Assembly: GCA_009693105.1 (NCBI GenBank)
Contig: SHXV01000010.1
Location: forward strand, 1 to 37,792
Direction of reading: 5' to 3'
Length of the DNA: 37,792 bases
Source of the DNA: Dehalococcoidia bacterium
GTDB lineage: Bacteria; Chloroflexota; Dehalococcoidia; SHXV01
In this document: positions 30,251-36,229 of the stretch, piece by piece
Position numbering within the stretch: position 1 is the stretch's first letter
Layout of the letters: each line of letters starts with the position of its first letter
Program-made: the position numbers and the translations under genes
Notes under the pieces: model-generated
Seen by the model: the letters and a program-made list of their open reading frames with translations, nothing else
The model's database searches: none
Told to the model about the DNA's origin: nothing

Positions 30251-31601
30251 ATGACGGGCGTTTCCAGCTATATTGATAGCCACTTTGAGGGGCACATGCA
30301 AGACCTGATCGCGCTCTGCCGCATCCCGACGGTAAGCGCGCATGGCCGGATGATCGAGGAGACGGCGCGCGAGGTGGAGTCGCGGTTGCGGGCGCTCGGG
30401 TTCAGGACGGAGCTCCTGCCGAAGCTGGAGGGCGGGCACCCGGTGCTGCTGGCGGACCGGAATGAGGGCGCGCCGCGCACGCTCCTGTTCTACAACCACT
30501 ACGATGTGCAGCCGGCGGAGCCCCTTGACCTGTGGACCACGCCCGCCTTCGAGCCGGCCTCCGGGAAGGCAAGCTCTACGCCCGCGGCGCCTCCGACAAC
30601 AAAGGCAACATCGTGGCACGGCTGGCGGCGCTGGAGGCGATCCTTTCGGCGGAAGGCCGCCTACCGATCAACGTGAAGTTCCTGATCGAAGGAGACGAGG
30701 AGATCGGCAGCCCTAACCTGGGCGCCTTCGTCGCCCGCCACCGCGACCGCCTGCGCGCTGACGCCTGCCTGTGGGAGGGCAGTGGAGTAAGCGCAGGGGC
30801 CAGCGGCAGGTGACGCTGGGAGTGAAGGGGTTGCTCTACGTAGAGCTGACGGTGGAAGTGGCCGCCCGCGACTCGCACTCGCAGTGGGCGACGGTCGTGC
30901 CGAACGCCGCCTGGCGGCTGGCCTGGGCACTGGCGTCGCTCAAGGGGCCGGACGAGCGTATCTACGTCGCCGGCTTTTACGACGCGGTCCGGCCGCCAAC
31001 GCCGGAGGAAGATGCGGCGCTGGCCAGGCTTCCGGACGAGTCCGCGGAGACGGCGCGCTCGCTGGACATGCCCGCCCTGCTGATGAATGTGCAGGGGCCT
31101 GACTACTCGCGCCGTCACCTCCTGGAGCCGACCTGCACGATCGACGGGCTGAGCAGCGGCTACGAGGGCGGGGGTGCGAAGACGGTGCCGCCGGCGAAAG
31201 CACTAGCGAAGATCGAGTTCCGGCTGGTGCCCGATCAGGGCTCCGCACGGGTCGCGACGCTGCTCCGAAAGCACCTCGACGACCACGGCTTCTCCGATGT
31301 GCGGATGCGGGTCATCTCAGGCGTGGAGCCGGCGCGGACGCCTCCGGACGCGCCCTTCATCCGCGTGATCGAAGAGGCGGGACGCGAGGTTTACGGGGTC
31401 GATCCGCTGATCTACCCGACGATGGCGGGCACGGGGCCGCTGCACGCCTTTATCACCGAACTGGGGGTCGATAGTGCGGACTGCGGTGTCGGCTACCCGG
31501 ACAGCCGTATTCACGCGCCGGACGAGAGCATCCGCATCGATGACATGCGGCGCAACATCCATCACCTGGCGGCGATAATCCAGCGTTTCGGCGCGGGCTA
31601 G
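30251..31601 (+). pseudogene. M20-family dipeptidase, broken by two frameshifts
   Basis: Starts at ATG 30251 (VSSYIDSHFEGHMQDLIALCRIPTVSA, shown here only as family match) with LLFYNHYDVQPAEPLDLW bearing the first metal ligands. Near 30560 the frame shifts and continues as REGKLYARGASDNKGN, then EGDEEIGSPN, the metal and catalytic Glu region. Near 30785-30810 a second shift leads to QVTLGVKGLLYVELTVEV, ARDSHSQWATVVPN and the end of the protein at 31601, including TGPLHAFITELG with the last metal ligand. All family motifs survive, so the lesions are recent single-base indels. Intact homologues are about 450 residues and hydrolyse dipeptides or carnosine-like substrates. It starts 7 nt after the GNAT gene. 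Confidence 0.85.
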
Positions 31602-33448: not shown

Positions 33449-33477
33449 TTGACGAGAGGCGGGGGATTTGCTACTCT
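33449..33477 (+). promoter_or_regulatory. sigma-70 promoter of the PyrE-like gene leader
   Basis: TTGACG (33449-33454), 17-bp spacer and TACTCT (33472-33477). Predicted start near 33484, giving a leader of about 307 nt before the phosphoribosyltransferase ATG. Confidence 0.7.
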
Positions 33478-33530
33478 GATACTAGCTGCGCGGCGACATG
33501 GACCAGTGCCTGGGACAGAAGGAGGGATCC

Positions 33531-33623
33531 ATGAAATCGATCAATCGAATCCTCTGGGGTGTATGGCAGGTTGACTGCGCAGCCCTGCGAGGCAGGGCTG
33601 GCCACGCGACGGCGGGCCCCTGA
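33531..33623 (+). CDS. 30-residue leader peptide ORF
   Basis: ATG at 33531 is preceded by AAGGAGGG, one of the best ribosome sites in the window, with ideal spacing. It encodes MKSINRILWGVWQVD followed by CAALRGRAGHATAGP and ends at TGA 33621-33623. Two Trp codons lie close together but no run of a control codon is obvious. The coding sequence contains a perfect 9-bp hairpin (CAGCCCTGC 33580-33588 with GCAGGGCTG 33592-33600), and GCGCAGCC at 33577-33584 is complementary to the 5' arm of the downstream terminator (33736-33743). This suggests translation of the ORF controls folding of the leader. Confidence 0.5.
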   Translation: MKSINRILWGVWQVDCAALRGRAGHATAGP

Positions 33624-33697
33624 ACTGAACACCAGGGCACCCTACACCGACATGCGCGTGCCCACTGAGGAAAGAATCCTCGGATCGGGGCCTGCCG
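33610..33697 (+). ncRNA. candidate three-way-junction structured RNA in the leader of the PyrE-like gene
   Basis: P1 is 11 bp (33610-33620 with 33687-33697, one G-U). It closes a junction with P2, GGGCAC/GTGCCC (33635-33640 with 33658-33663, 17-nt loop), and P3, 7 bp (33665-33671 with 33677-33683, one G-U, loop AAGAA). The linkers are TGAACTGAACACCA, A and ATC. Long complementary P1 arms 66 nt apart and two nested perfect helices are hard to explain by chance. I match it to no riboswitch class I know. A terminator hairpin follows 36 nt later, the arrangement of an aptamer with expression platform. Confidence 0.5.
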
Positions 33698-33734
33698 GGC
33701 GGACGACATGATAACAAACGAATAGCTTGCTTAG

Positions 33735-33767
33735 AGGCTGCGCCGGAATCCGGTAGCAGCCTTTCTT
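33735..33767 (+). terminator. intrinsic terminator / attenuator before the PyrE-like gene
   Basis: AGGCTGC/GCAGCCT (33735-33741 with 33756-33762) encloses a second hairpin CCGG-AAT-CCGG (33743-33753) and is followed by TTCTT. It lies 24 nt upstream of the ATG, so transcription must pass it for the gene to be expressed. Confidence 0.7.
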
Positions 33768-33790
33768 ATGAGAGGACAGCGGAGGCGGAT

Positions 33791-34441
33791 ATGGCACGAG
33801 GCGGAGATGACATCGGCAATCTCTGGCTGGCGCGGGTGCTCTGGTCGCTGGGCGGTGTCCGCTTCGGCGATTTCACGCTGGGGCGCACGACGGTGCACTC
33901 GCCGGTTTACGTCAACCCGCGACGGCTGATCAGCCGGCCTACGGCGTTGCAGCGGGCCGCGCGGGTGCTGGATGAAGAGGTGCGGACGCTGCAATCGATG
34001 CGGAACCCACAGATGCAGCCGTTCGACTTGATTGCGGGCATCCCGCTGGGCGGGCTGCACCTGGCGACAGCGTTCTCCCTGCGCACGAAGGTGCCGATGG
34101 TGTATCTTCACCCGAGGCCGGGGAAGCCGGAGGAGATGACGCTTGAGGGGGTGTACCAGCCGGGGCAGCGCGTGCTGATGGTGGATGACCTGGTGAACAA
34201 GGGCGGGAGCATCCTGGCCATGGGTGAGCAGCTGCGCGAAGCGGGGCTCGTCGTCGGCGATGCGGCGGTCCTCATCGACCGGCAGGTCGGGGGGCGGGAG
34301 GCGCTGAAGGAGCGCGGCTATAACGTGGTGGCGCTGCTGGGGCTGGAGCCGATGCTCAATTACCTGATGTCCACGGGCAAGATCGATGAGCGGCTATATC
34401 GCCGCAGCCTGGATTACCTGATGAAGGAGAAGCAGGGCTAG
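33791..34441 (+). CDS. orotate phosphoribosyltransferase-like protein
   Basis: 216 residues of the type I phosphoribosyltransferase fold. RVLMVDDLVNKGGSIL is the PRPP-binding signature (two acidic residues then a Gly/Ser loop), and AGIPLGGLHLATAFSLRTKVPMVYL and GGVRFGDFTLG match the OPRT arrangement, including the N-terminal substrate segment. Reaction, if true OPRT: orotate plus PRPP to orotidine monophosphate in UMP synthesis. The flexible-loop Lys region is shortened to PRPGKPEEM and several PyrE-like paralogues have other roles, so the symbol is withheld. GGAGG lies 5 nt before the ATG. It follows a long structured leader with a terminator and its stop shares CTAG with the convergent capA-like gene. 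Confidence 0.75.
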   Translation: MARGGDDIGNLWLARVLWSLGGVRFGDFTLGRTTVHSPVYVNPRRLISRPTALQRAARVLDEEVRTLQSMRNPQMQPFDLIAGIPLGGLHLATAFSLRTKVPMVYLHPRPGKPEEMTLEGVYQPGQRVLMVDDLVNKGGSILAMGEQLREAGLVVGDAAVLIDRQVGGREALKERGYNVVALLGLEPMLNYLMSTGKIDERLYRRSLDYLMKEKQG

Positions 34442-35520
34442 CGTCCGAGCCCTGCGATCGCTTCGGCGATGGAGGGCTTGAGGCGGGCGGCGCGGGCCTG
34501 CACGGCGGTGGCAGCGGCACGGGTGACGAGCCAGGGGAAGCCGGTCAGTTCATCGGTAACGGCGGGCACAAACCCGGCGGAGCGCACGCCGTCCTTCGTC
34601 AGTTCTGCCTGGAACACCATGGAAAGGGTGGAGGGCAGGCCAGGGAAGGCGCGATCGTACTCATCCAGGTCAAAAAGCAAGTTCCCCAGGCTGTAGACGA
34701 TGAGCGCACCGTTGCGCGCTTCACAGCGCTGGAGGAGGGGGGGGCCGGACCCCAGCACCAGCGTGGCGCCGGCATCGACGGCCGCATAGGCGAGGGCCCG
34801 TTGCTCCGGGGCTATCTCGTCGCGATACTCGTGGCCCCAGTGCATCGACACGATGACGACGTCGTGCGCCGCTTTCGCCCGGGCAACGGCGTCGCGGATC
34901 GCCTTCGGCTCCGCCCAGGCGATGCCGGCCGAGGTGGGCGTTGCGGCGAAGGAGCGGGCGCGGTAGCCGGTCACGGAGTCGTCATCGAAGCTGGCGAAGG
35001 CGGGCACGGCGATGCGAAGCCCCTGGGCGGTGACCGTGGCGGGCCGCAGCGCGTCGGCGAGGATGGCCCCGGCGCCGGTGGCGGCGATGCCGCGGGCCTG
35101 GAGAGCGGCGAGCGTATCGGCGAGACCGTCCGGGCCGTAGTCCAGCGAGTGGTTGTTGGAGACCGAGACGACATCGGAGCGGGCGAGGGCATCGGCGGAC
35201 GATGCGGGGGCGCGGAAGGTGAAGTCCTTGTTGGCGGCTACGCCACGGCTGGTTAGGGGGACTTCCAGGTTGGCGAAGGCGATATCGGCTGTGGCGATGG
35301 GCGCGGCGACGGCGGCGAAGACGGTGCCGGCGCCCTGGCGGGCGATGGCATCGCCCACGGCCCGGGCGAGCATGACGTCGCCGACGGCGGAGACGCGAGC
35401 GACGCCGCTGGTTGATGCGGCAGCGCCGGTGCCGGGGGTGGGCTGCACGACGGCAATGGGGGCGCTATCGCGGGAGGAGCAGGCGGCGAGGGCGGCAAGC
35501 GCGAACGCCGTGAGCACCAT
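34438..35520 (-). CDS. CapA-like (PGA_cap) lipoprotein
   Basis: 360 residues. The signal peptide ends in a lipobox (ALAALAAC, Cys at about residue 14), so the protein is a membrane-anchored lipoprotein. The CapA/calcineurin-like metallophosphatase fold is visible from SAVGDVMLAR through FANLEVPLT, SVSNNHSLDYG and SMHWGHEY. The usual late motif G-x-H-P-H-V reads VLGSGPPLLQ, so two metal-ligand histidines are missing while NNH and HWGHE are kept. The family includes poly-gamma-glutamate synthesis proteins, but no other cap genes are present and many homologues are of unknown role. Catalytic activity is therefore doubtful. Confidence 0.82.
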   Translation of the reverse strand: MVLTAFALAALAACSSRDSAPIAVVQPTPGTGAAASTSGVARVSAVGDVMLARAVGDAIARQGAGTVFAAVAAPIATADIAFANLEVPLTSRGVAANKDFTFRAPASSADALARSDVVSVSNNHSLDYGPDGLADTLAALQARGIAATGAGAILADALRPATVTAQGLRIAVPAFASFDDDSVTGYRARSFAATPTSAGIAWAEPKAIRDAVARAKAAHDVVIVSMHWGHEYRDEIAPEQRALAYAAVDAGATLVLGSGPPLLQRCEARNGALIVYSLGNLLFDLDEYDRAFPGLPSTLSMVFQAELTKDGVRSAGFVPAVTDELTGFPWLVTRAAATAVQARAARLKPSIAEAIAGLGR

Positions 35521-35945: not shown

Positions 35946-35990
35946 CGGGCTGGTTGACGCGTCGCGTCGCTGAATAGAATAGCTTCTTTG

Positions 35991-36122
35991 CAGGGGTTCC
36001 CCCGTTGCCTCAAGCAGGGCTCGCAAGGGTCCGGGGGTTGAATGCGAAGCCGGTCAGAGTCCGGCGCTGTCCCGCAACTGTAGTCCATCCGCTGGGATGG
36101 AGAGCCAGGTCGACAGCCCCTG
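35991..36122 (+). promoter_or_regulatory. cobalamin riboswitch aptamer
   Basis: The B12 box runs 36048-36082 with AGCCGGTCAGAGTCCGGCG and CTGTCCCGCAACTGTA, nearly identical to the class consensus. TCCATCC/GGATGGA (36084-36101) is a peripheral hairpin, followed by GAGCCAGGTCGACA. The outer helix is closed by CAGGGG (35991-35996) and CCCCTG (36117-36122). It binds adenosyl- or methylcobalamin and should lower expression of the downstream transport and salvage genes when B12 is abundant. Confidence 0.95.
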
Positions 36123-36128
36123 TGAGAT

Positions 36129-36229
36129 GCGCGAGCCTTCGAGGAAAGGGGCCGCTGCGTCCTGTACCCTCGCGGGTGACAGGCCCCAGCCCCCTCGGCC
36201 GGGGCCTTCTGGCGTCCGGCGGCTCGCGT
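36129..36229 (+). promoter_or_regulatory. possible riboswitch expression platform
   Basis: A hairpin GGCCCC/GGGGCC (36182-36187 with 36201-36206, extended inward by GCC/GGC) followed by TTCT lies inside a longer pairing, GCGCGAGCC (36129-36137) with GGCTCGCGT (36221-36229). The weak T run argues against efficient intrinsic termination; the elements could instead act through Rho or ribosome access. The remaining leader to 36291 shows no coding frame I can support. Confidence 0.35.

Follow-up and report, generated by a model that had tools for sequence, protein, structure and literature searches.

The window, by which we mean the whole 37,792-nucleotide stretch of Dehalococcoidia DNA analyzed here, encodes on its plus strand a PyrE-like protein of 216 amino acids (33791..34441), assigned to the orotate phosphoribosyltransferase family through NCBIfam matches below cut-offs and relatives in the PDB. 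Between this gene and a CCA-adding-enzyme-like gene on the minus strand lies a leader that an earlier note, made from the sequence alone, had described as a promoter, a three-way junction and a terminator; every part it named is present. Elsewhere in the window, a cobalamin riboswitch (RF00174, 51.5 bits) at 35977-36135 on the plus strand precedes a gene for a BtuF-like substrate-binding protein. Because its aptamer is overlapped by the long open reading frame called from 36097, the protein probably begins further on, at a lipoprotein start. An M20 peptidase at 30251-31601 (plus strand) is apparently split over frames (30251-30676, 30532-30813 and 30771-31601), which appears to reflect assembly-error frameshifts or a pseudogene. 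A PGA_cap-family protein is encoded at 34441-35520 on the minus strand; its similarity to MslH, a lasso peptide Trp epimerase, is weak and below cut-off.

The promoter of the leader consists of TTGACG (33449-33454), a 17-nt spacer and TACTCT (33472-33477). With 8 of 12 positions matching the consensus, it falls under the threshold of our scanner and is weak by that measure, but it sits where the promoters of related leaders sit: its -10 box is 53 nt upstream of the start of a short open reading frame (ORF), as compared to a median of 50 nt for relatives with a clear promoter. Promoters with at least 9 of 12 matches were found in 41 of 70 upstream regions of relatives, against 5.3 expected, and there too the -10 box is separated from the start codon by about 50 nt. 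We take the promoter at 33449-33477 to be real, as first proposed. The mini-ORF itself (33531-33623, plus strand) had been overlooked. It is preceded by the Shine-Dalgarno sequence AAGGAGG at 33519-33525, 5 nt before its ATG and matched in relatives, and its translation, which begins MKSINRILWGVWQVDC and in full reads MKSINRILWGVWQVDCAALRGRAGHATAGP before the stop, carries the hexapeptide GVWQVD at 33558-33575.

Three structures follow the GVWQVD codons. The first, also overlooked previously, is a 9-bp hairpin, here called H (CAGCCCUGC at 33580-33588 paired with GCAGGGCUG at 33592-33600), which lies at a fixed distance 3' of GVWQVD and corresponds to the first helix of the covariance model described below. 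The second is the three-way junction at 33610..33697, whose geometry is exactly as the earlier note gave it: P1 of 11 bp (33610-33620/33687-33697) with 66 nt between its arms, P2 of 6 bp (33635-33640/33658-33663), P3 of 7 bp (33665-33671/33677-33683), and the 14-nt linker TGAACTGAACACCA at 33621-33634. Pair probabilities are about 0.93-0.98, and the fold of 33605-33700 has a z score of -4.4, with none of 200 dinucleotide shuffles as stable. The linker had been offered as a possible conserved core, but its sequence is not kept in relatives, and its first letters (33621-33623) are the UGA stop codon of the mini-ORF. The third structure is an intrinsic terminator at 33733..33767, formed by a hairpin (33733-33764) and the tail UUUCUU, whose existence ahead of the ATG is borne out by a z score of -4.2 (again 0 of 200 shuffles as stable); its bulge and broken U tract hid it from a simple consensus scan.

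The DNA 5' of homologous PyrE-like genes in other families of the class contains mini-ORFs led by a Shine-Dalgarno sequence and ending VLWGVWQVDR-stop, RFGVWQVDC-stop and similar. A degenerate GVWQVD pattern found 64 matches in 393 genomes of the class, most of them metagenome-assembled, as compared to 2 for the reversed control, and nearly all lay in mini-ORFs, about 14 codons long, that follow a strong Shine-Dalgarno sequence. In a scan of named genomes, the Chloroflexota among the matches listed were Dehalococcoidia, unclassified Chloroflexi and Thermomicrobiales. Almost all of the remaining matches fell in long proteins of an ordinary kind or had no suitable start; those within long ORFs, which account for most of the matches outside Chloroflexota and for several in the phylum scan, were discarded as apparently ordinary proteins. 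The Shine-Dalgarno sequence is usually strong in accepted relatives, of which one was demanded, and it is present as well in matches to a covariance model that contains no peptide information.

That model, R1, was built from an alignment, A1, of 34 members, from which the window and the pyrE-adjacent type were left out. 3' of the ORF, the order of parts in relatives is fixed: first a GCCC…GGGC hairpin, then the three-way junction, then the terminator. In A1, 88.5% of cells are paired under the named structure, versus 33-47% when the structure is slid by 1-3 columns; 22 pairs have changed on both sides (13 in shuffles), and the 95 double-change cells compare with 28 in shuffles, none of 500 of which reaches 95. 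The covariation of related leaders, suggested at the outset as a check, is thus strong, and this comparative evidence argues that the junction is under structural selection. R1 recovers the held-out window at 33581-33699, over its full length and as the sole match in 37.8 kb, with E = 0.0037 and a modest score of 23.9 bits; the match begins 6 nt beyond the final GVWQVD codon, in agreement with its relatives. A separate alignment of the pyrE-adjacent family f66 gives the same hairpin and three-way junction, with 181 of 200 cells paired and 8 double-change pairs.

Searched without regard to the peptide, R1 found matches in 42 of the 393 genomes. Of 23 matches new to the GVWQVD pattern, 22 carry an ORF in register whose peptide is a related one (GVRQVD, GVLQTD, GVMQID, GVNQAD, GVWEVD, GVWLFPS and others), the one exception being weak (E = 0.02). 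In these 22 peptide-blind loci, single-base codon differences are synonymous at a fraction of 0.54 in frame, versus 0.24 and 0.16 in the other two frames; a fraction of 0.64, from a set including loci picked by the peptide pattern, is upward-biased, and 0.54 is used instead. The GVWQVD codons vary freely at third positions (GGA/T/G/C, all four GTN, CAA/CAG, GAC/T). Comparative evidence of this kind points to translation of the mini-ORF. Conserved residues cluster near the C-terminal end of the peptide while the N-terminus is variable, as in arrest peptides, and relatives can have Arg, Leu, Met or Asn in place of the Trp. In two genomes, paralogues differ in the peptide end, GVWLFPS in one copy versus GVRQVD or GVRQTD in the other.

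Taken together, the pattern and R1 place the unit in about 65 of the 393 sampled genomes, with a patchy distribution and at least two copies in some. Its recurring parts are promoter, Shine-Dalgarno sequence, ORF of about 14 codons ending in GVWQVD, GCCC…GGGC hairpin, three-way junction and terminator. As judged by comparison among these copies, the unit appears to be self-contained, about 250-300 nt long and equipped with a promoter and a terminator of its own; in it the mini-ORF typically ends GVWQVD-x-stop and the GC hairpin begins 6-9 nt after the last conserved codon.

The RNA lies directly before a co-directional gene in the window and in the pyrE clade, but of the next genes at 67 loci, 36 run in the direction of the RNA and 31 lie on the opposite strand. 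Neighboring ORFs were called by a simple caller and co-directional neighbors mostly named by eye from sequence; opposite-strand neighbors are real by Pfam in several loci (TatD, HAD hydrolase, S9, ABC ATPase, nitronate monooxygenase and glycosyltransferases). The next genes are diverse, including rpe, pyrE, cysS, a fabD-like gene, a glycosyltransferase gene, tatD, rpsI and others. In about half of the copies, then, the gene that comes next is convergent or unrelated, which makes the RNA normally a free-standing one, and the diverse or opposite neighbors argue against a leader that senses a ligand on behalf of pyrE. Of the riboswitch or attenuator architecture originally proposed, the structured RNA outside Rfam, the covarying junction and the terminator all hold; control specific to pyrE is not supported, given that most relatives lie elsewhere, that the next gene is opposite in about half, and that the terminator, as described next, forms regardless.

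In the window and its clade the RNA may nonetheless bear on pyrE expression. The PyrE-like gene starts about 24 nt after the terminator and no other promoter for it is evident, which makes read-through a likely source of pyrE transcripts; the unit also recurs before pyrE in several families. This order, together with a leader ORF whose translation the comparative coding evidence suggests, would suit a ribosome-mediated transcription attenuator, with translation of the leader peptide choosing between terminator and antiterminator. Terminators before pyrE also have fewer U residues in their tails (4.7 versus 5.7 of 8, p = 0.003 uncorrected for relatedness), in agreement with read-through. Against such attenuation, the pair probability of the window's terminator is 0.996 whether or not the upstream fold is present, and it is the same for RNA free of ribosomes and for RNA with a ribosome placed on the Asp codon or on the ORF stop; release of the terminator by a ribosome was accordingly rejected for the window. 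Pairing of H with the terminator as an antiterminator looked plausible in a few loci, yet over 66 loci the hairpin arms pair no better with their own terminator than with those of other loci, whereas the P1 control does show such specificity. Neither the window's fold nor this 66-locus pairing test found a mutually exclusive terminator and antiterminator. About half of the family, moreover, has no co-directional gene to regulate, and codons linked to pyrimidine metabolism are not abundant in the mini-ORF; attenuation through Trp codons was rejected because the Trp is replaceable. We consider attenuation of the PyrE-like gene improbable. At seven loci from relatives that lack the RNA, the PyrE-like gene is immediately preceded by a strong promoter and by a short hairpin resembling a terminator, so pyrE may have a separate attenuator in such lineages.

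The peptide also occurs apart from the junction. In 21 loci, mostly of families f77 and f78, the GVWQVD mini-ORF, often with the adjacent hairpin, is found without a three-way junction, in several copies per genome and directly before genes for apparently secreted proteins; in two of these loci the stop of the mini-ORF overlaps the Shine-Dalgarno sequence of the next gene. Because the peptide and hairpin of f77 and f78 precede genes with apparent signal peptides and mostly lack the junction, the peptide module would seem usable in more than one setting. The same arrangement, the conservation at the amino-acid level, the strong Shine-Dalgarno sequence and the presence of paralogues ending GVWLFPS in the same genome would also suit a peptide of 14 residues that is itself the product, as a signal peptide, a cofactor or the scaffold of a ribosomally synthesized and modified peptide, with the fold merely stabilizing its mRNA. 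No conserved modifying enzyme or exporter adjoins it in the loci read, however, and 22 compensatory pairs represent more structural constraint than simple stabilization needs, so that we give this explanation rather long odds. About the same doubt attaches to a stabilizer coupled to translation, in which ribosomes near the 5' end would protect an mRNA or small RNA from decay and sense nothing specific: a strong Shine-Dalgarno sequence near the 5' end and an ORF adjoining a hairpin agree with it, and they occur whether the RNA stands alone or leads a gene, but by itself such protection needs no conserved peptide sequence. Least probable by far is the metabolite riboswitch controlling pyrE that the earlier note proposed, for although a covarying three-way junction and a terminator do precede pyrE, most members are unlinked to pyrE and have diverse next genes, no conserved unpaired core is held in common with the window, and the strong coding conservation would be left unexplained; a normally free-standing RNA in which no terminator/antiterminator switch was found leaves PRPP, orotate or a pyrimidine nucleotide unsupported as ligand, and nothing in the data points to any of the three.

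The impression that the junction fits no known class stands after an Rfam scan at gathering and relaxed thresholds, in which no family matched the element (best E = 3.5 in that region of the window). A nucleotide search with the leader against 60 relatives, none of them from the window's own family, returned no match. ARAGORN found no tRNA or tmRNA mimic in the element, and viral carriage was set aside with only three matching viral contigs in the collection. Neither the GVWQVD motif nor an RNA of this kind was found in the literature searched, a 2017 list of 224 candidate RNAs falling outside that search.

SgrS/SgrT, Spot 42/SpfP and SR1/SR1P are examples of dual-function small RNAs, and those of bacteria that encode peptides have been surveyed as a group. 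The unit resembles them in having an independent promoter and terminator and in joining a structured RNA to a short conserved ORF, but no sequence or Rfam relation was found, and the fixed spacing of ORF and hairpin and the three-way junction set it apart; the survey is that of PMC5521070. Yfr6, the Downstream-peptide RNA of cyanobacteria (RF01704), is likewise an RNA of about 250 nt with a short conserved ORF marked by synonymous changes (PMC2864571). There the aptamer precedes the ORF, while here the fold follows it, and no Rfam match links the two. SpeFL is an arrest-peptide leader. TnaC is another (PMC8429421). With both, the mini-ORF shares conserved C-terminal residues near the stop, a variable N-terminus and a position before structured RNA; it differs in having no peptide sequence in common with them, in not being bound to one downstream operon, and in that arrest here is putative. 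The trp and his attenuators similarly have a leader ORF and a terminator, but the present unit has no regulatory codon run, no alternative antiterminator was found, and often no gene stands behind it.

Our preferred reading, to which we assign a probability of about one half, is that the window holds one copy of an apparently undescribed family of dual-function RNAs, spread through many Chloroflexota, in which the nascent peptide probably induces a ribosome pause beside the fold. Members of the family have their own promoter and terminator, are normally free-standing and contain a conserved coding ORF, with pyrE following closely in the case of the window. Given the conserved C-terminal end of the peptide, its variable N-terminus and the constant distance to hairpin H, we suggest that nascent GVWQVD would cause a pause of the ribosome on the Asp codon or immediately past it, up against the hairpin, and that the state of translation would decide whether the hairpin and junction fold. 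About a third of copies, the window's among them, have lost the stop ahead of the hairpin, and the ORF in the window would cross H and the 5' arm of P1 absent a pause; loss of the stop fits a pause before it, though it is no proof. From the free-standing arrangement, we infer that the RNA may act chiefly in trans, or else while bound to the ribosome; no antisense seed or target conserved in the family was identified. In the window's clade, where the unit stands directly before pyrE, the gene is probably transcribed from the RNA promoter through a leaky terminator. A bolder version, which we offer as a tentative proposal, is a free-standing riboregulator that senses by way of the ribosome: a built-in arrest peptide of 14 codons would park a ribosome and so switch a three-way-junction RNA acting in trans, variants such as GVWLFPS might confer another specificity on paralogues, and the peptide-plus-hairpin module would serve also before secreted-protein genes in some lineages.

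Peptide-encoding small RNAs and arrest-peptide leaders are already known; what is new, as far as our searches reach, is their combination here. Strong covariation and strong coding conservation meet in one molecule, in what appears to be an undescribed RNA family, and the motif (MRLHELYGVWQVDS-stop-hairpin, or the window's version of it) is short enough for direct toeprinting. The family would join nascent-peptide biology to a structured RNA outside the leader of any single operon, in a unit that stands free, and it is spread over Dehalococcoidia and other Chloroflexota, bacteria whose regulation is almost unstudied.
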